From positions 765,952 through 829,951 of the forward strand of contig NZ_LR134375.1 of NCBI RefSeq assembly GCF_900637515.1: a stretch of DNA of 64,000 nucleotides. Direction: 5' to 3'. Position numbers and translations under genes: made by a program. Source of the DNA: Veillonella dispar (lineage in GTDB: Bacteria; Bacillota; Negativicutes; Veillonellales; Veillonellaceae). Below the pieces are notes generated by a model. That model saw only the letters and a list, made by a program, of their open reading frames with translations, made no database searches and had not been told where the DNA came from. This document shows, one piece after another, positions 1,965 through 64,000 of this stretch (its first letter is position 1; each line of letters opens with the position of its first letter).

Positions 1965-3560
1965 ATGGGTGCCGAATTAAATCAAAAATTATTTAGTGCT
2001 GCTGATAGTTTACGCGGTAAGATGAGTGCTGATCAATATAAAGATTATCTATTAGGGTTAATATTCTATAAATATTTATCCGATAAATTATTGGAATCAA
2101 CAGTTGTAAAAGCTTATAAATCTCTTGATGAATACAATACTGTAGCAAAGCAAACAGAATTATATAAATCATATATTTTGGATGATAAAAGTAAAGATTT
2201 CTTTATTGCTACCATGTCTGATACATTGGGATATCATATAGAGCCTCAATATTTATTTAGTGAGCTTGCTAATGCTGTTAAAGATAATTCTTTTGAATTA
2301 GTTCATTTAAAAAATGCTTTTGTACGTTTAGAAACAGCATATAAACAATTTGAAGGTTTATTTGATGATATTGATCTAGATTCAAAACAATTAGGCGTTG
2401 ATGCTAACCAACGTAATATTACAATTAGTGAAGTGATAAAAAAACTTGATGAAGTTGATGTCTTAGGTCATGATGGCGATGTTATTGGTGATGCTTACGA
2501 ATATTTAATTGGTGAGTTTGCCGCTGGATCTGGTAAAAAAGCTGGTGAGTTTTATACACCTCAACAAGTATCAGATATGATGGCTCAAATAGTAACTATC
2601 GGTCAAGAGGATACACCATCATTTACAGTATATGACCCTACAATGGGTTCTGGTTCTTTGATGTTAAATGTACGTAAATATTTAAATAATCCAGATCGTG
2701 TTCAATATCATGGGCAGGAATTAAATGTAACCACATATAATCTTGCACGTATGAATCTTATTCTTCATGAGGTAAGTGCCGAAGATCAACGATTACATAA
2801 TGGGGATACATTGAATAAAGATTGGCCTACAGATGAGCCATATATGTTTGATTCTGTTGTTATGAACCCTCCGTACTCTGCTAACTGGTCAGCAGACCCT
2901 ACCTTTATGGATGACGCACGTTTTAATAGGTACGGAAAACTTGCCCCTAAGTCTAAGGCTGACTTTGCTTTCCTTTTACATGGTTTTTACCACTTAAAAA
3001 CATCTGGTACAATGGCTATCGTTTTGCCACATGGTGTTCTATTTAGAGGTGCAGCAGAAGGCACAATTCGCAAAAAATTATTAGAAGATGGTAGCATTTA
3101 TGCTGTTATCGGTATGCCTGCAAACCTTTTCTTTGGCACATCTATTCCTACAACTGTTATTATTCTTAAGAAGAACCGTAAAGGTCGTGATGTATTATTC
3201 ATTGATGCAAGTAATGATTTTACTAAGTTTAAAAATCAGAATAAATTAGAACCTGAGCATATTAAACGTATTGTTGATACATATAAAAACCGTGAAAGTA
3301 TTGAAAAATATGCTTATTTAGCTTCTTTTGAAGAAATTAAAGAAAATGACTTTAATCTTAACATTCCGCGCTATGTTGATACATTCGAAGAAGAAGCACC
3401 AATAGACATGGTTACACTAGGTGCGGAAATGAAAGCCATTAATGAAGAAGAATCAAAATTAGAACAAGACATTTATGATATGCTTCTTCAATTAGAATGT
3501 GCTGAGGAAGATAGAGAATGGTTAAATGGCGTACTAGAGGTATTTAATCATGAGAAATAA
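1965..3560 (+). CDS. hsdM: Type I restriction-modification DNA methyltransferase subunit HsdM
   Basis: This is the N6-adenine methyltransferase of a type I restriction-modification complex. It uses S-adenosylmethionine and acts with HsdS to methylate the recognition site. The 531 residues contain an N-terminal helical HsdM domain (about 10-150), GEFYTP (about 195-200), the AdoMet-binding motif I DPTMGSG (224-230) and catalytic motif IV NPPY (301-304). ATG 1965 follows AGGAGA at 1955-1960. The 3' end overlaps hsdS by 11 bases, so the two are translationally coupled. All key motifs are intact. Confidence 0.97.
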   Translation: MGAELNQKLFSAADSLRGKMSADQYKDYLLGLIFYKYLSDKLLESTVVKAYKSLDEYNTVAKQTELYKSYILDDKSKDFFIATMSDTLGYHIEPQYLFSELANAVKDNSFELVHLKNAFVRLETAYKQFEGLFDDIDLDSKQLGVDANQRNITISEVIKKLDEVDVLGHDGDVIGDAYEYLIGEFAAGSGKKAGEFYTPQQVSDMMAQIVTIGQEDTPSFTVYDPTMGSGSLMLNVRKYLNNPDRVQYHGQELNVTTYNLARMNLILHEVSAEDQRLHNGDTLNKDWPTDEPYMFDSVVMNPPYSANWSADPTFMDDARFNRYGKLAPKSKADFAFLLHGFYHLKTSGTMAIVLPHGVLFRGAAEGTIRKKLLEDGSIYAVIGMPANLFFGTSIPTTVIILKKNRKGRDVLFIDASNDFTKFKNQNKLEPEHIKRIVDTYKNRESIEKYAYLASFEEIKENDFNLNIPRYVDTFEEEAPIDMVTLGAEMKAINEEESKLEQDIYDMLLQLECAEEDREWLNGVLEVFNHEK

Positions 3561-4773
3561 ACCGAGAATACGATTTAAAGGATTTGCGGAAGATTGGGAA
3601 CAGTGTAAGTTGGGAAATTTGGGGACTTTAAAGAATGGAATGAATTTTTCTAAGGAGGCTATGGGGAAAGGATATCCATTTATAAATTTACAAAATATAT
3701 TTGGAAGCAATGTTATTGATTTAACTAAATTAGAAAAAGCTGAAGCAACAGACTCTCAACTAAAAGATTATAATCTTCAGAAAGGAGATGTACTTTTTGT
3801 TCGATCTTCGGTTAAGTTAGAAGGTGTCGGCGAGGCTGCTTTGATTTCTGAAGATTTAAAAGATACAACTTTTTCTGGGTTTATTATAAGATTTAGAGAT
3901 AATTATGGATTAGATTATAATTTTAAAAGATTTATATTTATAACAGTCTTGATTAGAAATCAAATTATGTCTCAAGCTACTAATAGTGCTAATAAAAATA
4001 TTAGCCAATCTGTTTTGAATAATCTTTATTTATTTATTCCAACAAAAGATGAGCAATCAAAAATCGGATTGATTTTTTCAAAGTTAGATAAATGTATTAC
4101 CCTTCATCAGCGTAAGCTTGAAAAACTTAAATTAGCTAAAAAAGCGTTATTGCAAAAATTATTCCCTAAAAATGGAAGTCAATTTCCTGAAATTAGATTT
4201 AAAGGTTTTACTGATGCTTGGGAACAGTGTAAGTTTTCAGATATTACATATTTATCAGGTATAAAAAATAAAGAAAATAAACCCTATGAAAGTTATTCAA
4301 TTTCTAATGAGTTTGGATTTATTCCTCAAGACGAACAATTTGAGAATGGTGGAACAATGAAAACTGCTGATAAAAGCATGTATTATATTGTTAGTCAAAA
4401 CTCCTTTGCTTATAATCCAGCTAGAATTAATGTTGGATCAATTGGTTATTATGATAAGCCTGATAATGTTATTGTTAGTTCTTTATATGAGGTTTTTAAG
4501 ACTACAGATATAGTCAGTGATAAATTCTTATGGCATTGGTTTAAATCAAATCAATTTAATCGTTTGATTGAAAAGTACCAAGAGGGTGGCGTTAGACTAT
4601 ATTTTTACTATGATAAATTGTGTAAGGGTACCATAGAATTACCAACTATTAATGAGCAAAATAAGATTTCTAATCTACTTGATGATTTAGACATGTATAT
4701 TACCCTTCATCAGCGTAAGCTAGATAAGTTACAAGAGGTGAAAAAAGGGTTGCTTCAAAAGATGTTTGTATAG
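3550..4773 (+). CDS. hsdS: Type I restriction-modification specificity subunit HsdS
   Basis: This subunit sets the DNA sequence recognised by the HsdMR complex. The 407 residues form two target recognition domains, each introduced by a similar segment (IRFKGF..DWEQCK near residue 6 and IRFKGFTDAWEQCK near residue 216). Each ends in a similar helical spacer (LHQRKLEKLK.AKKALLQK and LHQRKLDKLQEVKKGLLQK). The corresponding DNA is repeated: 3571-3611 resembles 4195-4235, and the 20 bases at 4099-4118 recur exactly at 4702-4721. Such repeats let recognition domains be exchanged in other systems. Only one hsdS is in the window. Confidence 0.96.
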   Translation: MRNKPRIRFKGFAEDWEQCKLGNLGTLKNGMNFSKEAMGKGYPFINLQNIFGSNVIDLTKLEKAEATDSQLKDYNLQKGDVLFVRSSVKLEGVGEAALISEDLKDTTFSGFIIRFRDNYGLDYNFKRFIFITVLIRNQIMSQATNSANKNISQSVLNNLYLFIPTKDEQSKIGLIFSKLDKCITLHQRKLEKLKLAKKALLQKLFPKNGSQFPEIRFKGFTDAWEQCKFSDITYLSGIKNKENKPYESYSISNEFGFIPQDEQFENGGTMKTADKSMYYIVSQNSFAYNPARINVGSIGYYDKPDNVIVSSLYEVFKTTDIVSDKFLWHWFKSNQFNRLIEKYQEGGVRLYFYYDKLCKGTIELPTINEQNKISNLLDDLDMYITLHQRKLDKLQEVKKGLLQKMFV

Positions 4774-21273: not shown

Positions 21274-22113
21274 ATGACTGAAATACAAGCTCTTTTATTG
21301 ATAAAATCTATTCTCGAATCCGCAGATATTCATGGTATTGAAAACATTTTGGCTGAGGATTGTGAATACATGTCTACGGGTCGAGGTATTATTGGCCGCA
21401 ATCGTAATGAAAGTATTGAGTTTTTATCCTCTATGACTGAGTCTATTAAGGCTGATAATGTGCCTGTTACGTGCAAGGTGATGCATATTACCGATGTGTA
21501 TGAGGAGGATGCGCTATTCCATGAGGGCCGTCATGGTTTGACTGTTTCTTATGAAAGCAGCGATAACTATGTGTACATGATTTTTGTTGATGTAAATGAT
21601 GAGGGGCTCGTAGACCGTATCGTATCTAGTCAGGAAAACTATAGTATTGAGTATGATGATCTTCGTTTTGGCGATGATGAAAGCGAGTATGCTTTTATTT
21701 CTGCACCAACTACTGTGAAAGATTGGATTACAGCCCTCAGTATGTGGCTTGAAACCGCGAATGTTGATGTAGACGATTTCTACCAATATATAGATGAAGA
21801 CACACGTGTTGTATTCCAAAAAGGCGATGCTGAATCCATCACCCTTGAAAGCGGCCTTGATGTAGAAGATTACTTTGATCAATTAATGAACCAACACTTT
21901 GATGCGGTACCTCATATCATTCGCGATGAAGAAGATGGTCTTATTTTAACCTATGGTCCTATGAGTGCCATTGCAACCCTCAATGAAGAAGGCGCACTAG
22001 CGCTTATTAGTATCTATATCGACACACGTGACGAAGACGAAGCTACTGATGAAGTTGGCTATATCGAAGAAGAACTAACCAAGACAACAACTACTGAAGA
22101 AGATTTATTATAA
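21274..22113 (+). CDS. Acidic hypothetical protein with possible NTF2/SnoaL-like repeats
   Basis: The 279 residues are strongly acidic and have no signal peptide or membrane segment. The beginning (ILESADIHGIENILAEDCEY, with a later GRNRNESIEFL) looks like an NTF2/SnoaL-type domain. A second similar region starts near residue 150 (VKDWITALSMWLETANVDVD), so two copies of such a fold are possible; this is an inference from pattern only. It is coupled to paralogue 3 but, unlike it, should stay in the cytoplasm. Codon use in the 3' half is less AT-rich than in paralogue 3. Confidence 0.7.
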   Translation: MTEIQALLLIKSILESADIHGIENILAEDCEYMSTGRGIIGRNRNESIEFLSSMTESIKADNVPVTCKVMHITDVYEEDALFHEGRHGLTVSYESSDNYVYMIFVDVNDEGLVDRIVSSQENYSIEYDDLRFGDDESEYAFISAPTTVKDWITALSMWLETANVDVDDFYQYIDEDTRVVFQKGDAESITLESGLDVEDYFDQLMNQHFDAVPHIIRDEEDGLILTYGPMSAIATLNEEGALALISIYIDTRDEDEATDEVGYIEEELTKTTTTEEDLL

Positions 22114-22116
22114 ATA

Positions 22117-22311
22117 ACTCTATCAGTAAAATGTACTATACTTAGTCTAAATATATATGGTTAGTGAGATACTACCAGTTAAAAGTATTATGTTTAGTCT
22201 AACTACATATGATTAATGAGATACTACCAGTTAAAAGAATATTGTTTAGTCTAACTACATATGATTAATGAGATACTACCAGTTAAAAGTATTATATTTA
22301 GTCTAGAAATG
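22117..22311 (+). repeat. 52-bp tandem repeat, about 3.7 units
   Basis: Units start at 22117 (degenerate), 22169, 22221 and 22273 (partial), each beginning ATACTACCAGTTAAAAG in the well-kept copies and ending TTAATGAG. Units 2 and 3 are almost identical. There are no unique spacers between units, so it is a plain tandem repeat. It occupies the gap between the convergent genes ending at 22113 and 22577. Confidence 0.85.
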
Positions 22312-22314
22312 TAA

Positions 22315-22403
22315 AAAACTACCAGTTAATTTCACGTTGTAGTAGATCGACCTCCTGTTATTGAAGATCGGTTTACAAAACAACATGACTAACTGGTAGT
22401 TTT
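22315..22403. repeat. Long inverted repeat built from the 52-bp repeat core
   Basis: AAAACTACCAGTTA (22315-22328) is exactly complementary to TAACTGGTAGTTTT (22390-22403). Inside, CACGTTGT (22333-22340) pairs with ACAACATG (22380-22387) with one G-U pair. The result would be a two-part stem with a loop of about 39 bases and a T-rich 3' end. It may be a terminator, a small structured RNA or the end of a mobile repeat. Confidence 0.6.
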
Positions 22404-22428
22404 AAATTTAATTAGAAATAATTATTTT

Positions 22429-22496
22429 TAACTGGTAGTATCTCAAAAAAGAGTATATATGGGATGCCTGAAATTATTTTTAACTGGTAGTATCTC
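22429..22496 (-). repeat. Inverted partial copies of the 52-bp repeat
   Basis: TAACTGGTAGTATCTC occurs at 22429-22444 and 22481-22496, exactly 52 bases apart. This is the reverse complement of the GAGATACTACCAGTTA junction in the direct array. The sequence between the two differs from the direct units, so only the core and the spacing are kept. Confidence 0.75.
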
Positions 22497-22576
22497 TAAA
22501 ATAGATATATGTAAGCGAACTAAAAGCTTTTCTACATTTCATCATGGTCTTTAATGAGACCCGCTTTTTTCTTTTT

Positions 22577-23839
22577 CTAATAGGAGTAGTAGAATGGCAA
22601 GATTACAATACAGCCGCCTAGACCCCATAGTAATTGGTTGGTTTGAGCTTGGGCGAGCATCCATAGGGATGTGCCGATTGCAATAACTGGGATTAAATAG
22701 CCACCAGGGATTGTATAAGATCGATCTTTGTCTGCCCATTTACGACGGAAGATAATAACTGCTAAACATGTTGGTAGGTATTGTGTAAAACGAGATACTG
22801 CACTGATGGCTGCTAGTGTAGTAAAGGAACCAGACCATGCAAGTAATACACTGGCAATGGCTGTAACGATAGCTGCAACATATGGTGCATTGTAACGATT
22901 ACGTTTAGCTAGAGCACTTGGTAACATACCGTCTTCAGCCATAGAGGTAGCCACACGAGGTGCATAGTAAGCCTCCGCAAAGTTGATACCACCCATAGAA
23001 ATTAGTGTTCCTACTAATACAACGTACATACCGATAGGACCTACAATTACGTTAAAAGCATCTTGGACTGGTGCTTTTGTATTAGCCAAGTCAGAGCCGA
23101 GTACACCGATAGATACGGCGAGTATTGCCATATATAGAACGGACACGAGAAGCATACACATGATAATAGCACGTGGTAAATTCTTTTTAGGATTTTTCAT
23201 ATCTTCTGCAGCAATGGCAATAACTTCAAATCCTGTATAGGCAAAGAATAGAAGAACTGCGGCTTGTGCAAATGAACCATCTACATAAGTATCTTGCGGG
23301 AAGACTGGCGTAAAGTTAGCTCCATTTATAAAGAAAATGCCAATTGCAATGAATAGGGCAAGAGGAACTAACTTAGAAATAGTGATTAAGTTGTTAACGA
23401 ATTTTGATACGTTAACACCAAAGATATTTACAATGGTAAGACCTACAATCAAGATAAATGAAATAACATCTTTTGCAAAATCACCACTTAACGCCGGCAC
23501 TGCAGCACCTAATGCGGTAGCAAAGCCAACGGCCATGGCCGCCCAAGCAATAACGGTTACAATCCATTTTAAAACGCCTACTTCAAAGGCCCAAAAGTCA
23601 CCTAATGCATGTTTTGCATATAGGTAAGGTCCGCCATTACGTGTAAATAAGCTTGCCGCTTCAGCAAAGCAAAGGGCGATACATCCTGCAATTACGGCAT
23701 CAAATAATAGGACGCCTAAACTAGCGGAACCAATGATAGAATATGCTTTGTTTGGTAGTAGAAATATACCTGTCCCTACAATACCATTGATGCCTAGGAG
23801 TACAATACTCCAGAAGCCAAATTTTCCTATTTCTTTCAT
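22577..23839 (-). CDS. APC-family amino acid permease
   Basis: The 420-residue protein has about 12 membrane segments and the standard start of the amino acid-polyamine-organocation family (GINGIVGTGIFLLPNKAYS). FAYTGFEVIAIAAEDMKNPKKNLPRAI, recognisable by its FAYTGFE and EDMKNP parts, follows. Its partner upstream, a PuuD-like hydrolase, ends 15 bases before its start, so both are in one operon. The pairing suggests import of a gamma-glutamyl compound or an amino acid related to it. The exact substrate cannot be told. Confidence 0.87.
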   Translation of the reverse strand: MKEIGKFGFWSIVLLGINGIVGTGIFLLPNKAYSIIGSASLGVLLFDAVIAGCIALCFAEAASLFTRNGGPYLYAKHALGDFWAFEVGVLKWIVTVIAWAAMAVGFATALGAAVPALSGDFAKDVISFILIVGLTIVNIFGVNVSKFVNNLITISKLVPLALFIAIGIFFINGANFTPVFPQDTYVDGSFAQAAVLLFFAYTGFEVIAIAAEDMKNPKKNLPRAIIMCMLLVSVLYMAILAVSIGVLGSDLANTKAPVQDAFNVIVGPIGMYVVLVGTLISMGGINFAEAYYAPRVATSMAEDGMLPSALAKRNRYNAPYVAAIVTAIASVLLAWSGSFTTLAAISAVSRFTQYLPTCLAVIIFRRKWADKDRSYTIPGGYLIPVIAIGTSLWMLAQAQTNQLLWGLGGCIVILPFYYSY

Positions 23840-33112: not shown

Positions 33113-33871
33113 TTATTGTCTTTAGACTGGTTCGCGACGTAGTCGCGAATCATAAAACCACCCGCTATGCGGGTGCGGCAACGAAAGTTATACAAAAAAA
33201 TCACCTTGCTTAAGTATAATGTAGGTGTTCAAGCCGCATTATATACAAAAGAAAGGTGATTTTATATGGCAACAAAGACACAGAGCCTTGCGCACACAAA
33301 ATGGTTATGCAAATACCACATAGTATTTACACCTAAGTATAGACGTAAAGTTATATATAATCAATATAGAAATAGTTTACGTGAAATACTGAGACGTTTA
33401 TGTGAATATAAGGGCGTCAAGATTATAGAGGGGGAGCTTATGGCAGATCATGTGCATATGCTAGTGTTAATTCCACCTAAAATATCAGTTTCATCTTTTA
33501 TGGGATATCTAAAGGGTAAAAGTGCGCTAATGATGTTCGATAAACACGCAAACTTAAAGTATAAATTTGGAAATAGACACTTTTGGTCCGAGGGATATTA
33601 TGTAAGTACGGTAGGATTAAATGAAGCTACCGTAAAAAAATATATACGTGAGCAAGAATTACATGACCAAATGAAAGATAAACTTAGTGTAAAAGAATAT
33701 GAGGACCCTTTTAAGGGTAGCAAGTAATACATATCCCCTTTAAGGGGACCGTTACGAGTCAATGGCTATGCGGCTTGAACGTAGTGAAAGCCAGCGCCTT
33801 TAGACGCTGGCCTAGTACTACGGGCTTATAGCCCGTGAGCAAACCACCCGTTTTACGGGTGGTCCTGATTT
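33113..33871 (+). mobile_element. IS200-type insertion sequence, copy 1 (759 bp)
   Basis: The borders come from comparison with 52496-53254: both copies share sequence from TTATTGTCTTTAGAC at the left to CTGATTT at the right, and the flanks differ. The left end carries hairpins (TTCGCGAC/GTCGCGAA, CACCCGC/GCGGGTG); the right end carries CCAGCGCC/..GGCTGG-like, ACGGGCT/AGCCCGT and ACCACCCGT/ACGGGTGGT hairpins, as expected for single-strand transposition by HUH enzymes. There is no inverted terminal repeat and no target duplication. It holds tnpA only; no tnpB. It inserted just after a terminator. Confidence 0.9.
33266..33727 (+). CDS. tnpA: IS200/IS605-family transposase TnpA, copy 1
   Basis: This is a Y1 HUH single-strand transposase of 153 residues. 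The HUH motif is visible as ADHVHMLV (about residues 60-67), and the catalytic tyrosine is probably in VKKYIREQE (about 127-135). The family start CKYHIVFTPKYRRKV is present. It is identical in protein sequence to the copy at 52649, although the DNA differs at several silent sites. GAAAGGTG lies in front of the ATG. The gene is intact, so the element could be active. Confidence 0.95.
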   Translation: MATKTQSLAHTKWLCKYHIVFTPKYRRKVIYNQYRNSLREILRRLCEYKGVKIIEGELMADHVHMLVLIPPKISVSSFMGYLKGKSALMMFDKHANLKYKFGNRHFWSEGYYVSTVGLNEATVKKYIREQELHDQMKDKLSVKEYEDPFKGSK

Positions 33872-52495: not shown

Positions 52496-53254
52496 TTATT
52501 GTCTTTAGACTGGTTCGCGACGTAGTCGCGAATCATTAAACCACCCGCTATGCGGGTGCGGCAACGAAAGTTATACAAAAAAATCACCTTGCTTAAGTAT
52601 AATGTAGGTGTTCAAGCCGCATTATATGCAAAAGAAAGGTGATTTTATATGGCAACAAAGACACAGAGCCTTGCGCACACAAAATGGTTATGCAAATACC
52701 ACATAGTATTTACACCTAAGTATAGACGTAAAGTTATATATAATCAATACAGAAATAGTTTACGTGAAATATTGAGACGTTTATGTGAATATAAGGGCGT
52801 CAAGATTATAGAGGGGGAGCTTATGGCTGATCATGTGCATATGCTAGTATTAATCCCGCCTAAAATATCAGTATCATCTTTTATGGGATACTTAAAAGGG
52901 AAAAGTGCACTAATGATGTTCGATAAACACGCAAACTTAAAGTATAAATTTGGAAATAGACACTTTTGGTCCGAGGGTTATTATGTTAGTACAGTAGGTT
53001 TAAATGAGGCTACAGTAAAGAAATATATACGTGAGCAAGAGTTACATGACCAAATGAAAGATAAACTTAGTGTAAAAGAATATGAGGACCCTTTTAAGGG
53101 TAGCAAGTAATACACATCCCCTTTAAGGGGAACGTTACGAGTCAATGGCTATGCGGCTTGAACGTAGTGAAAGCCAGCGCCTTTAGACGCTGGCCTAGTA
53201 CTACGGGCTTATAGCCCGTGAGCAAACCACCCGTTTTACGGGTGGTTCTGATTT
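52496..53254 (+). mobile_element. IS200-type insertion sequence, copy 2 (759 bp)
   Basis: Same borders, length and hairpins as copy 1 at 33113-33871. The flanking sequence to the left (TTTTGCG) and right (CGATAATT) is different from copy 1, which fixes the ends. In both cases TTAT is the first shared sequence, so TTAT may be the target. Both copies sit directly behind an intrinsic terminator. Confidence 0.9.
52649..53110 (+). CDS. tnpA: IS200/IS605-family transposase TnpA, copy 2
   Basis: Protein identical to the transposase at 33266 over all 153 residues, with the HUH motif ADHVHMLV and the tyrosine region VKKYIREQE. The DNA differs at several third codon positions (for example in the ISVSSFMGYLKGK region), so the two copies have been apart for some time while the protein stayed under selection. 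Confidence 0.95.
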   Translation: MATKTQSLAHTKWLCKYHIVFTPKYRRKVIYNQYRNSLREILRRLCEYKGVKIIEGELMADHVHMLVLIPPKISVSSFMGYLKGKSALMMFDKHANLKYKFGNRHFWSEGYYVSTVGLNEATVKKYIREQELHDQMKDKLSVKEYEDPFKGSK

Positions 53255-58550: not shown

Positions 58551-61500
58551 ATGAATAAGGTATTCAAAGTTGTTTGGAGTGCAACTAAGCACGCTTACGT
58601 CGTAACGTCTGAGTTGGCTAAGTCACATCAAAAATCTGCAACTACAATTGTAGCTGCAGTTATTTTGGCGGCTAGCTTTTCTGGAGGTGTTGCTAATGCA
58701 TCCAGCCCTGAGGATTGGGCTAGAGCTGATCTTATTGGTAGCCAAAGATGGTTAACACCTGATCAAAATGCTTGGGGTCATATGCAAGATCAACATCAAG
58801 TTGATTCACAACAATTAGACCAACAGCAACAGCAACAACAACAGCAGCAACAACAATGGCAACAACAAGAGCCACAGCAACAACAATGGCAACAACAAGT
58901 GCCACAACAGCAACAACAGCAACAACAATGGCAACAACAAGTGCCACAACAACAGCAGCAACAACAAATCCCTAAAAAAGGCGGTTCCACTGGTAATACC
59001 GTAATTAATAACTACTATACAGTTGTAACTACTGATGTTGAAAATGTTAAGAAAAATACACATAACATTAACGTTGTAAATAAAAAGGTAGATATCAATA
59101 CTACTAATATTAATACTGTTAATAATAAGGTTGAGAGTGTAAAAACTGACATTAATAAAATCAATGCTAATATTACAAATATCAACGCTAAAGTTGATAA
59201 AAATAGCAAAGATATTGAAGGATTAAAAGGCAAAGTCGGCACTCAAATCACTAACATTCAACAAGATATCACAAATATTAACAATAATATTGACGCTAAA
59301 TTTACTAAAATTAACAACGATATTGATGTAAAAATCGATAATAAAATTACTAACATTACAAATAATGTTGTTAATAATGTAAATACTAACATTGATGCTA
59401 GTGTAAAAAAACATATTGAAGCTAATAATACCAATATTATTAATCAAGTAAATCAAAATATTAATACTGCAGTTCAAAATAATAACACTACAATTTTGAA
59501 CAAAGTTGATGAGAAGATTGAAAATAACAACACTACTATTATTAATAATGTTAATAAAGATGTAGATGTTAAGATTAATGATATTAAAACAAATATCAAT
59601 AATACGAAAAATGAGTTGAATACTAACATTTCTAATGTTAAAAATGAACTCAATCAAAATATCAACAACGTTGATATTAAAGTTAACAACAATAAAAAAG
59701 CAATTGATAATTTAACTGTTAATGTTAACAATAATAGTAAATCTATTGCTGATTTAACTGCTAAAGTTGAAAATAACACCCAAAATATTGATGCTAATAA
59801 TACTTTCATCATGGAAAACCGTAAATTTATCGGTGATAACAAAAAAGCTATCAACGAGAACAAAAAAGCCATCGATGAATTGAAAGGTAAAGTTGGCACA
59901 ACAATCAATAATATTAACACTACAATTGATAATAAGATTAATGAAAATAACACTAAGATTATCAACGAAGTTAATCACAATGTAGATGTTAAAATCAACG
60001 ATAGCAAAACTAACATTATTAGTGAAGTTAACAAAACAATTAATTCTAAAATTGAAGCTAACAACACAACTATTATTAATAAAGTAAATAATGATGTTGA
60101 TACTAAGATCAATGCTGTTAAAACTGATATCACAAATATCAACAATACAGTTAATAATGTAAGTGCAAAAGTTGATTCTAATACTACTAACATTACTAAT
60201 AACACTACAAATATCAACAAAAATGCGACTGCAATTACTGAATTAAACACTAAAGTTGATAATCAAGGTAAAGTTTTAGTTAATCATGAAGGTCGCATCC
60301 AGGAGCTTGAACAAGACAATAAAACTATTAAAACTGATGTAGCTAACACTCAAAATCAAGTTAATATCAATACTAAAGATATTGCTGATTTGAAAGGTAA
60401 AGTTGGTCAAAATATTGGTAATGTTCAAGTAGATATTAAAGATATTAAAAACAACATCACTAATATCAACAATAAAGTTGAAGCAAACACAGTTGCAATT
60501 AACAAGGTTGATGTAAAAGTTAATGGTGTTAAAGGTGATTTGGATGGCCTTAAAGGTCGTGTTGATCGCCATGACCAACGTTTGGACTACTTGCAAGACA
60601 ACATTGCAGATAACTCTACACGAATCTCTATTGTAGAAGATGGTGTAAAAGCTAATACAAAAGACATTAATGTAGTTGGCACAATTGCAATGGAAAACCG
60701 CACACTTATCGGTGCAAACCAAAAAGCTATCGATGAGTTAAAAGGTCATGTTGGCACACAAATTACCAATATTGAAACTACAATCAATAAGAAGATTGAA
60801 GCTAATAATACTACAATTATCAACAAAGTAGATGGTAATATTGATGCTAAGATTGAAAAAAATAACACAGTTATTAACAATAACATTAACAATGTAAATG
60901 CTAAGACTGAAGTTAATGCTAAAGCTATTACAGATAATAGTAAACGTATTGATGCTAATTCTGCTCGTATTTCCAATAATGAAAAAGCAATCAACGAGTT
61001 AAAAGGCCATGTTGGTACACAAATCACTAACATCGAAAATACAATTACTAATAAGATCAATGAAAACAACACAGTAATCAACAAAAATATCGATGCTAAG
61101 ATTGAAGCTAATAATACTACAATTCTTAATAAAGTAGACAATAACATCGATGTTAAGATTAATGCTAATAACATTAAAGTTGATCAAAAAATTGATGGTG
61201 TTAAAGGCGATTTAGATGGTCTTACTAAACGCGTTGCTCAAAACGAAAAAGACATCAACGTAGCTGGCACAATTGCTATTGAAAACCGTACACTTATCGG
61301 TGCTAATAAAAAAGCTATTGATGAATTAAAAGGTCATGTTGGCAATCAAATCACAAATATCGAAAATACAATTACTAATAAAATCAACGAAAACAATACC
61401 GTAATTAATAAAACTATCGATAATAAGATTGAAGCTAACAACACTGTTATCAACCAAAATATTGATAATAAAATCAATAGCAATAACACAACAATCATTA

Positions 61501-64000
61501 ATAAAGTAGATCAAAACATTGACGCTAAAATCAATGCTAATAACACTACAATCATTAACAAAGTTGATAAAAATATTGATGTAAAGATCAATGAAAATAA
61601 CACTCAAATCAACAATACAATCAACAAAAAAGTTGGCGATGTAAATGTTAAGATTGATGGCGTTAAAGGTGATGTAGCTGGTCTTACTGCACGTGTAGAT
61701 CGTCATGATCAACGTTTAGATTACTTACAAGGCAACATTGTAGATAACTCTACACGTATTAGTGCTAATGAAGATGCTATCAAAGCATTAAAAGGTCAAG
61801 TTGGTACTACAATTAAAAATATCGAAACTACAATTAATAACAAGATTACAGAAAATAATGTAACTATTAATAAAAATATCGATACTAAGATTGAAGCTAA
61901 CAACACTGTTATCAACCAAAATATTGATAATAAAATCAACAGCAATAATACAACAATCATTAATAAAGTAGATCAAAACATTGATGCTAAAATCAATGCT
62001 AATAACACTACAATTCTTAACAAAGTTGATAAAAACATCGATGTAAAAATCAATGAAAATAACAAACAAATCAACAACACAATCAATACTAAGATTGGTG
62101 ATGTAAATGTTAAGATTGATGGCGTTAAAGGTGACTTGAATGGTCTTAAAGGTGATTTAGATGGCCTTAAAGGTCGTGTAGATCGTCATGACCAACGTTT
62201 AGACTACTTACAAGATAATATTGCTGATAACTCTACACGTATCTCTGTAGTTGAAGATGGTGTGAAAGCTAATGCAAAAGATATTAATGTAGTAGGTACA
62301 ATTGCAATGGAAAACCGTCAATTCATTGGCGATAATAAAGTTGCTATTGCTAACAACACTAAAAACATCAACATCAATGCTAAAGCTATCGATGAGTTAA
62401 AAGGTCAAGTAGGTCAATCCTCTACAGTTATCAACGATATTAAGAAACAAATTACTAATATCAACGGTAAAGTAGAAAATAACACTACAAACATTGCTAA
62501 TAACACAACTAATATTGCTAAAAATACTACAGCAATTAATAACGTAAACGTTAAAGTTGATGCTAATGCAAACGCTATCGTAGATAATAGCAAACGTATT
62601 GATGCAACTAATGTAAAAGTAGATGTTAATACTACTAACATTGCTAACAATACAACAGCAATTAACAATGTAAACGTTAAAGTTGATGGTGTTAAAGGCG
62701 ACTTGAATGGTCTTACTAAACGTGTAGAACAAAACGAAAAAGACATCAACGTAGCTGGTACAATTGCAATTGAAAACCGTAAATTCATTGGCGACAACAA
62801 AGCTGCTATTGCAAATAACACTACAAATATCAATGTTAATGCAAAAGCTATTGATGAATTAAAAGGTCAAGTAGGTAAATCTTCTACAGTGATCAATGAT
62901 ATTAAAAACCAAATTACTAATATCAATGGTAAAGTAGAAAATAATACCACTAACATCGCTAACAATGCTACAAACATTCAAGCTAATGTAGTGGCAATTA
63001 CTGACAATAGCAAACGTATTACTGAAAATACTACAAACATCGCAAACAATACTACAAACATTGCTAATAACACTACAGCTATTAACAATGTAAATGTAAA
63101 AGTTGATGGTGTTAAAGGTGACTTGAATGGTCTTACTAAACGTGTAGAACAAAACGAAAAAGACATCAACGTAGCTGGTACAATTGCAATTGAAAACCGT
63201 AAATTCATTGGCGACAATAAAAAAGCTATCGATGAATTAAAAGGTCAAGTTGGTACTACTATCACTAATATCGAATCTACTATTAATAACAAGATTGAAG
63301 CTAACAACACTACAATCCTTAATAAAGTAGATCAAAATATTGATGCTAAGATTACTGCTAATAACACTGTAATTAACCAAAACATTGCTAATGCAATCAA
63401 TGAAAATAATACAACAATCATTAACAAAGTTGATAAAAACATTGATGTGAAAATCAATGAAAACAATAAGCAAATCAACAACACAATCAATACTAAGATT
63501 GGTGATGTTAATGTTAAGATTGATGGCGTTAAAGGTGATGTAGCTGGTCTTACTGCACGTGTAGATCGTCATGATCAACGCTTAGATTACTTACAAGGTA
63601 ACATTGTAGATAACTCTACACGTATTAGCGCTAATGAAGATGCTATTAAAGCATTAAAGGGCCAAGTTGGTACAACAGTTACTAATGTTGAAAATACAAT
63701 CAACGCTAAGATTGAAGCAAACAACACAGTAATTAGAAACGATATCAACACTGCAATTACTAATAACAACACTGTTATTAACAATAACATTGCAACTGCA
63801 ATCAACGAAAACAATAAAACAATCATTAACAAAGTAGATCAAAATATTGATGCTAAGATTGCTGAAAACAATACAGTAATTAACAACACAATTAACAGCA
63901 AAGTTAATGAAGTAAATGTTAAGGTTGATGCTAACGCAAAAGCAATTGTTGATAATAGCAAAGCTATTACTGACATTAAAGCTAATGTGACAAATATCAG
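58551..64000 (+). CDS. Trimeric autotransporter adhesin, N-terminal part (runs off the window)
   Basis: The frame is open from ATG 58551 to the right edge, giving at least 1816 codons. It starts with an extended signal peptide region (MNKVFKVVWSATKHAYVVTS, then a hydrophobic stretch ending VANA, about residue 50), typical of type Vc secretion in bacteria with an outer membrane. A short linker and a Gln-rich stretch follow (58809-58967, repeats of QQQWQQQVPQ). The rest is a left-handed coiled-coil stalk rich in Asn, Ile, Thr and Lys, built of modules with VDRHDQRLDYLQ, GTIAMENR and AIDELKGHVG. No YadA-like head or membrane anchor is inside the window. Role: surface attachment or co-aggregation (inferred). 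Confidence 0.93.
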   Translation, partial: MNKVFKVVWSATKHAYVVTSELAKSHQKSATTIVAAVILAASFSGGVANASSPEDWARADLIGSQRWLTPDQNAWGHMQDQHQVDSQQLDQQQQQQQQQQQQWQQQEPQQQQWQQQVPQQQQQQQQWQQQVPQQQQQQQIPKKGGSTGNTVINNYYTVVTTDVENVKKNTHNINVVNKKVDINTTNINTVNNKVESVKTDINKINANITNINAKVDKNSKDIEGLKGKVGTQITNIQQDITNINNNIDAKFTKINNDIDVKIDNKITNITNNVVNNVNTNIDASVKKHIEANNTNIINQVNQNINTAVQNNNTTILNKVDEKIENNNTTIINNVNKDVDVKINDIKTNINNTKNELNTNISNVKNELNQNINNVDIKVNNNKKAIDNLTVNVNNNSKSIADLTAKVENNTQNIDANNTFIMENRKFIGDNKKAINENKKAIDELKGKVGTTINNINTTIDNKINENNTKIINEVNHNVDVKINDSKTNIISEVNKTINSKIEANNTTIINKVNNDVDTKINAVKTDITNINNTVNNVSAKVDSNTTNITNNTTNINKNATAITELNTKVDNQGKVLVNHEGRIQELEQDNKTIKTDVANTQNQVNINTKDIADLKGKVGQNIGNVQVDIKDIKNNITNINNKVEANTVAINKVDVKVNGVKGDLDGLKGRVDRHDQRLDYLQDNIADNSTRISIVEDGVKANTKDINVVGTIAMENRTLIGANQKAIDELKGHVGTQITNIETTINKKIEANNTTIINKVDGNIDAKIEKNNTVINNNINNVNAKTEVNAKAITDNSKRIDANSARISNNEKAINELKGHVGTQITNIENTITNKINENNTVINKNIDAKIEANNTTILNKVDNNIDVKINANNIKVDQKIDGVKGDLDGLTKRVAQNEKDINVAGTIAIENRTLIGANKKAIDELKGHVGNQITNIENTITNKINENNTVINKTIDNKIEANNTVINQNIDNKINSNNTTIINKVDQNIDAKINANNTTIINKVDKNIDVKINENNTQINNTINKKVGDVNVKIDGVKGDVAGLTARVDRHDQRLDYLQGNIVDNSTRISANEDAIKALKGQVGTTIKNIETTINNKITENNVTINKNIDTKIEANNTVINQNIDNKINSNNTTIINKVDQNIDAKINANNTTILNKVDKNIDVKINENNKQINNTINTKIGDVNVKIDGVKGDLNGLKGDLDGLKGRVDRHDQRLDYLQDNIADNSTRISVVEDGVKANAKDINVVGTIAMENRQFIGDNKVAIANNTKNININAKAIDELKGQVGQSSTVINDIKKQITNINGKVENNTTNIANNTTNIAKNTTAINNVNVKVDANANAIVDNSKRIDATNVKVDVNTTNIANNTTAINNVNVKVDGVKGDLNGLTKRVEQNEKDINVAGTIAIENRKFIGDNKAAIANNTTNINVNAKAIDELKGQVGKSSTVINDIKNQITNINGKVENNTTNIANNATNIQANVVAITDNSKRITENTTNIANNTTNIANNTTAINNVNVKVDGVKGDLNGLTKRVEQNEKDINVAGTIAIENRKFIGDNKKAIDELKGQVGTTITNIESTINNKIEANNTTILNKVDQNIDAKITANNTVINQNIANAINENNTTIINKVDKNIDVKINENNKQINNTINTKIGDVNVKIDGVKGDVAGLTARVDRHDQRLDYLQGNIVDNSTRISANEDAIKALKGQVGTTVTNVENTINAKIEANNTVIRNDINTAITNNNTVINNNIATAINENNKTIINKVDQNIDAKIAENNTVINNTINSKVNEVNVKVDANAKAIVDNSKAITDIKANVTNI
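62701..62797 (+). repeat. Adhesin stalk module repeat, copy 1 of a 97-bp identical block
   Basis: The 97 bases are identical to 63121-63217, exactly 420 bases downstream, inside modules that begin KVDGVKGDLNGLTKRVEQNE. It shows recent copying or conversion between stalk modules. Confidence 0.85.
63121..63217 (+). repeat. Adhesin stalk module repeat, copy 2 of a 97-bp identical block
   Basis: Second copy of the block at 62701-62797. After 63217 the two modules diverge: this one goes directly to AIDELKGQVG, while the earlier one has an additional Asn/Thr-rich insert. Confidence 0.85.

Follow-up and report, generated by a model that had tools for sequence, protein, structure and literature searches.

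Between two convergent genes of Veillonella lies an array of 52-bp units whose arms point inward from both sides towards a hairpin. On balance, and with confidence only somewhat above even, we interpret this locus as a two-way intrinsic terminator that has been enlarged on both sides by arms of an interspersed palindrome carrying the same 11-bp core. The locus is a composite, in which an old central terminator-like hairpin is combined with outer arms from a low-copy repeat, and judged from predicted folds and position the array probably helps to end both transcripts. It thus belongs to the small interspersed repeats that shape bacterial gene ends. The window, i.e., the whole stretch of 64,000 nucleotides analyzed, stems from a Veillonella genome of 2.12 Mb (G000) and was compared within a set of 14 genomes of the genus, including its own, and 14 genomes of the family from outside the genus. 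The features of the locus are collected in Table 1.

Table 1 Features of the array locus and its neighbours (positions in the window).
Feature	Position	Strand	Remarks
Left convergent gene	21274..22113	+	279 aa; homologue in 12 of 14 Veillonella genomes
Tandem array	22120..22305	+	period 52, 3.6 units, arms oriented toward centre
Outermost left arm, degenerate (CTATCAGTAAAATG)	22120-22133	+	in first unit of array
Forward arm 1	22166..22187	+	
Forward arm 2	22218..22239	+	
Forward arm 3	22270..22291	+	
Central hairpin	22315..22403	both strands	outer stem 22315-22328/22390-22403 with A/T tracts, paired inner part; two-way intrinsic-terminator-like
Inverted arm 1	22423..22445	-	
Inverted arm 2	22475..22496	-	52 bp from inverted arm 1
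Right convergent gene, amino-acid permease (AA_permease_2)	22577..23839	-	

The original prediction of nearly four direct 52-bp units, followed by a long inverted repeat built from the unit core and two inverted cores exactly 52 bases apart, agrees well with the measured layout. TRF detects the direct units with a score of 274, and register copies of 82 nt start at 22120, 22172 and 22224, i.e., in steps of 52 and 52, the second and third being 84% and 83% identical to the first. The two halves of the central inverted repeat are 14 nt long and 100% complementary, and the inverted cores at 22429 and 22481 are spaced by 52. No open reading frame of at least 80 aa was found in 22114-22576, just as the site had been described as free of frames and situated between convergent genes. 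The claim of a mirror-image second half holds for the arms of about 22 bp only. The linkers differ in sequence between left and right, and the one between the two inverted arms is no inverted copy of the left linkers. The core ACTACCAGTTA occurs without mismatch seven times at the array locus, four times forward and three times reverse. When up to one mismatch is allowed, nine copies are present in the window, two of them outside the array locus, compared with 1.4 expected, and none of 100 shuffles reached nine. A CRISPR array was considered and rejected, as the spacers are not unique, the left array's two full linkers being 93% alike. As to the flanking genes, the product of the left gene has no Pfam match at E 0.001 and its nearest homologue resides in G011 (98%), and the permease is 99% identical in protein sequence to its counterpart in V. 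parvula SKV38. Note that the permease lacks the last 15 codons present in five relatives, owing to an in-frame stop beyond which the relatives' frame continues (22532-22579, minus strand).

Some form of the central hairpin of about 90 nt exists at the same place in eight of the twelve Veillonella genomes that have the left gene. In seven of them (G000, G005, G007, G008, G009, G011 and G012), ACTACCAGTTA lies opposite TAACTGGTAGT at a distance of about 70 bp; G004 carries a diverged form, and in G002, G003, G010 and G013 the left gene is present with other sequence beside it. The central stem AAAAACTACCAGTT/CTGGTAGTTTT is invariant in all eight aligned genomes and accompanied by A and T tracts. 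The outer stem as a whole hardly varies and is invariant over most of its length, and the inner sequence is 48-57% identical between three groups, formed by G000 and G011, by G005, G007, G008, G009 and G012, and by G004 alone. All eight sequences nevertheless fold as one extended hairpin on both strands. The consensus fold contains two-sided changes at 5 of 23 pairs, with an unfavourable covariation term (+1.01). Taken alone, the inner part has a better fold than almost all of 300 shuffles in G000 (z -3.3 and -4.6 for the two strands) and in G011 (z -2.4 and -3.3); the same comparison is less clear in the other genomes, down to z -0.6 in G009, and inner-part pairing is weak in G009 and G012. 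The stem is followed in the window by four Ts on the plus strand and six on the minus strand, and in the five relatives with exact core that lack the outer arms by five or six Ts on both strands. A 14-16-bp stem that is followed by Ts on either strand and lies between convergent genes is what an old two-way intrinsic terminator looks like, and this is the function we predict for the central hairpin. A terminator consensus scan with a loop limit of 8 nt made no call at the central hairpin on the plus strand and called another candidate at 22546-22561 on that strand. Outer arms occur at this locus in G000 and G011 only (two of the twelve genomes with the left gene), and the hairpin is retained in the six genomes in which they are absent, i.e., the five with exact core and G004. 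The armless form of the terminator, around which array growth could be followed, is still present in relatives.

The entire region 22114-22500 folds with -118.3 (z -9.1) and -114.3 kcal/mol (z -11.3) on the two strands, in each case better than 100 of 100 dinucleotide shuffles, forming nested hairpins in which the outer arms are paired. Together with the two-way terminator-like hairpin in the centre, these folds make a structured RNA the best supported of the four options listed in the original prediction; nothing seen along the way pointed to a recombination site or a replication element. Position relative to genes points in the same direction. According to simple ORF calls, 6 of 12 array sites in V. 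atypica, described below, lie between convergent genes and 4 between co-directional genes, none lies between divergent genes and two have no assigned orientation. For the six loci of the parvula group the respective numbers are 2 convergent, 3 co-directional and 1 divergent. Given this gene-end bias and the nested folds on both strands, a terminator with reinforcement is the most likely working of the locus. Transcripts arriving from either gene would fold into nested hairpins, which would stop read-through and protect the 3' ends, and the outer units would act as a backup for the central terminator that is dispensable to it.

The outer arm is one half of a palindrome of about 44 bp with the same ACTACCAGTTA core. 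In the window's own genome, the core is found 13 times, comprising the seven copies at the array locus and three pairs elsewhere, each of which forms a palindrome of about 44 bp (AGATACTACCAGTTAAAA, a short loop and the inverse arm). Across the genus, the palindrome occupies five further intergenic loci, of which this genome has three. For the genome search, a covariance model was built from 15 palindromes, 150 of 2127-3610 first-look candidates were scored per genome and sites with E below 1e-10 were regarded as strong. Within this scope, 16 strong sites were detected in 6 of the 14 genomes of the genus (three in G000, five in G005, one in G008, three each in G010 and G011, and one in G012). 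Judged by neighbouring genes, they fall into five shared intergenic loci, A (4 genomes), B (3), C (4), D (2) and E (3), and none of the 16 is unique to a single genome. Among the 14 family genomes outside the genus, a single place in G027 passes E 0.01, and this is a different hairpin; the weak matches in G003, G006 and G027 were read individually and rejected because they look like unrelated hairpins. The string GATACTACCAGTTAAAA occurs once in each of six viral contigs, in which the V. atypica core was not found.

Palindromes stand alone or together with tandem units of arm and linker, and at several loci such units are arranged on one side of the palindrome. The array periods are 51-53 at D, 53 at C, 51 and 54 at E, and 62 or 79 at A. 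Locus A contains one forward arm in G000, belonging to one palindrome, two in G010 and four each in G005 and G011, and seven other genomes compared by eye have no element there. These differences between species indicate that units come and go. Locus C likewise lacks the element in seven genomes and is represented in G012 by a variant whose two arms carry matching changes; locus B is comparable only in part, since several neighbours differ. An array restricted to this strain, with an inverted half that is conserved nowhere else, would have spoken against the original prediction and is not what we found. The mirrored layout recurs in G011 with other unit numbers, and the cores recur elsewhere. 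In G011, the arm closest to the terminator continues into the loop and the initial bases of a full palindrome's second arm, after which the terminator stem starts; this suggests that the palindrome recombined with the terminator through the common core. Repeat copies may thus have joined the terminator via this shared core, and units may then have been gained and lost through recombination between direct arms and duplication.

In V. atypica (G002), the same intergenic site harbours six copies of another palindrome, with core ACAGGCCTGT and longer arms, 53 bp apart, and this palindrome is also present at 12 further loci. The 15-mer TACAGGCCTGTTCTA has 34 copies at 13 loci in G002 and none in the 13 other genomes of the genus. 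Twelve of the 13 loci were read, without the one on contig C9. All 55 intervals below 70 bp at these 12 loci measure 50-56. Of 26 parvula-group intervals, 19 fall within 51-54, counting those of 30-90 bp and leaving aside 4 of 30 that touch the central hairpin; the remaining seven are all at locus A. The equal spacing remarked upon in the original prediction is thereby strengthened, as several loci and a second family again display about 52 bp. The two families, with their different cores, have almost the same period and are found in different species at one and the same intergenic site; growth, loss and constraint of arrays could hence be followed within one genus. Note that two V. atypica arrays, L104 1227-1502 and L105 604-773, have very similar linkers and lie near contig ends; they are possibly one array broken by assembly or insertion.

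A dispersed, intergenic palindrome whose place is taken by a different one in V. atypica could also be a REP- or MITE-like parasite mobilised in trans by a transposase, with arrays as a by-product and no role for the cell. IS200/IS605-type Y1 transposases, which are encoded in 12 of 14 genomes of the genus, would be at hand for this. We nevertheless consider such a parasite improbable. Its copy number is low, and the absence of single-genome sites among the 16, combined with element-free relatives at loci A and C, fits descent with losses better than present-day transposition. The distribution of the widespread Y1 genes does not track the repeat, with eight matches and one palindrome in G012 and 14 matches, many of them partial, and no strong palindrome in G006, and a link between the two was rejected. 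The exact core strings are absent from four loci with IS200-type Y1 transposase genes. At loci A and C the element-free intergenic regions are too diverged for a target-site duplication to be read. The REP-associated transposase model NF047646 is over cut-off in none of the 14 genomes of the genus and below it in ten, while one of 14 control genomes passes. The window itself contains two copies of an IS200/IS605-type transposase gene, at 33266-33727 and about 52682-53038 (both plus strand), and nine matches exist in its own genome.

Linkers are 74-93% alike within arrays. Such homogenisation, together with the degenerate outer unit and copy numbers that differ between species, would also be expected from a plain minisatellite, in which slippage or unequal recombination amplified a chance palindrome without any function. 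The linkers of the five parvula-group loci, compared with strictly one unit per locus, are in keeping with this, being weakly alike (z 2.0, reached by 13 of 400 shuffles and by 1 of 400 background draws); with eight units, including two from E and three from F, z rises to 4.3 (0/400). Linkers of V. atypica, on the other hand, are clearly alike between loci (12 units, z 16.7, 0/400 shuffles), and a minisatellite explains neither this nor the near-equal length at most loci and in the second family. It is also at odds with the arms, which are more alike than the linkers in 17 of 18 arrays, some of which are orthologous and hence non-independent. As the arm search pattern favours conserved cores, the comparison was repeated on bases outside the pattern, and the result was again 17 of 18. 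Finally, intergenic tandem arrays with periods of at least 30 are rare. In 1.6 Mb sampled from eight genomes (7,500 of 1,600,000 bases being N), counting periods of at least 30 and arrays with no more than 80% inside long open frames, there was one V. atypica array, whose piece had been chosen for it, one CRISPR-like array and three short repeats with roughly two copies each, and thus no intergenic array of about 52 bp besides the V. atypica one already known. The CRISPR-like array resides in G009 (L176 10118-11856) and has a repeat of about 36 bp and a period of 66. We therefore regard a functionless minisatellite as unlikely, to much the same degree as the parasite. That the role of the array is limited to self-maintenance is possible.

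The linkers of the two families also resemble each other. With one unit per locus (5 versus 12), z is 4.3 in forward orientation and 4.2 with one side reversed (0/400 each), 7.9 with the eight parvula-group units, and 3.7 and 4.0 against composition-matched genome pieces from a background of 20 stretches. What both have in common is mainly an ATATAT-like centre. As the reversed control is as strong as the forward comparison, the likeness may just reflect this shared A/T-rich centre, i.e., base composition by position rather than homology. A far-reaching idea, to which we assign a low probability, is that there is one Veillonella array class in which the period of about 52 bp and the ATATAT-centred linker were kept and the core was swapped between species (parvula group ACTACCAGTTA, V. 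atypica ACAGGCCTGT), as would result from a protein that gauges the spacing or recognises a core evolving along with it.

The main rival to the terminator reading is a protein-binding array, which we rate as possible yet clearly less probable. A DNA-binding protein would read the arm as a half site or the palindrome as a full site, and neighbours about five helical turns apart would be co-bound at operator, nucleoid or domain-boundary sites. The greater likeness of arms than of linkers and the narrow spacing in both families are consistent with this possibility. In addition, the palindrome stem shows hardly any variation across five loci and six genomes, and solitary palindromes exhibit one two-sided change, which is not above shuffles (140/500). 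Sequence and not structure alone is thus kept, which favours sequence recognition at these sites. No T tract accompanies the solitary palindromes, and the genes flanking locus C are divergent, a position that would suit binding; termination can therefore not be the role at all sites. However, the V. atypica spacing varies over 6 bp, which is half a turn, and locus A has values of 62 or 79, such that helical phase is not kept; the gene-end bias is atypical of operators, and no candidate protein came to light incidentally. For the array between the convergent genes, we thus prefer termination.

Interspersed repeats of about 50 bp arranged head to tail between genes are familiar from Mycobacterium as MIRU. 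The Veillonella repeats resemble them in these respects and differ by their palindromic arms and mirrored layout, neither of which is known to us from MIRU. By analogy, the Veillonella element would work similarly to NIME, BOX, SPRITE and REP/BIME, as an interspersed palindromic repeat forming arrays. Neisserial NIME are intergenic arrays composed of RS elements of 30-160 bp and, alternating with them, short repeats that have inverted ends; dRS3, ATTCCC(N8)GGGAAT, has almost 700 copies (PMC3898611). The Veillonella arrays are likewise intergenic, with inverted-end repeats alternating with linkers, but have another core, half-palindrome arms and a single kind of linker in each array, and each genome of the parvula group has them at a handful of loci only; inspection by eye reveals no match between their core and the dRS3 palindrome. 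BOX of Streptococcus pneumoniae is portrayed as an element folding into a stem-loop within which a module is tandemly repeated in variable number, and SPRITE as an interspersed repeat with an 18-bp terminator-like stem (PMC3049150). Variable numbers of tandem modules in a stem-loop element are also seen in Veillonella; on this description, however, BOX is set apart, as Veillonella has no evident boxA or boxC ends and its repeated module itself bears the arm. The terminator-like stem of an interspersed repeat is shared with SPRITE, whereas Veillonella solitary palindromes lack an adjacent T-rich tract and the repeat forms arrays. REP/BIME are intergenic palindromes, sometimes tandemly reiterated with flanking DNA (PMC3733652), as in Veillonella, with a copy number usually over 100 (PMC2817692). 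Assignment to REP/BIME was rejected in view of the low copy number (1-5 sites with full palindromes in each of six out of 14 genomes, among the candidates scored), the lack of a RAYT over cut-off and the lack of a one-sided GTAG or CGTC tag outside the stem, CTAC/GTAG being located by eye symmetrically inside both arms.

No description of these arrays was apparent by title or abstract among the papers retrieved on Veillonella repeats, palindromes, insertion sequences and terminators, and none of the Veillonella RNA motifs in the accessible portion of PMC8632094 matches them. Rfam covariance models gave no match up to E 1 in 21500-23000, and in six related loci the sole match over gathering is a riboswitch away from the array. 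A cobalamin riboswitch lies at L101 154-324 (minus strand), about 1 kb from a V. atypica array. Elsewhere in the window, 58821-63789 is rich in tandem repeats, whose periods are 12-57 bp and in one case 462 bp; these periods are multiples of three and possibly reflect a putative long repetitive protein.
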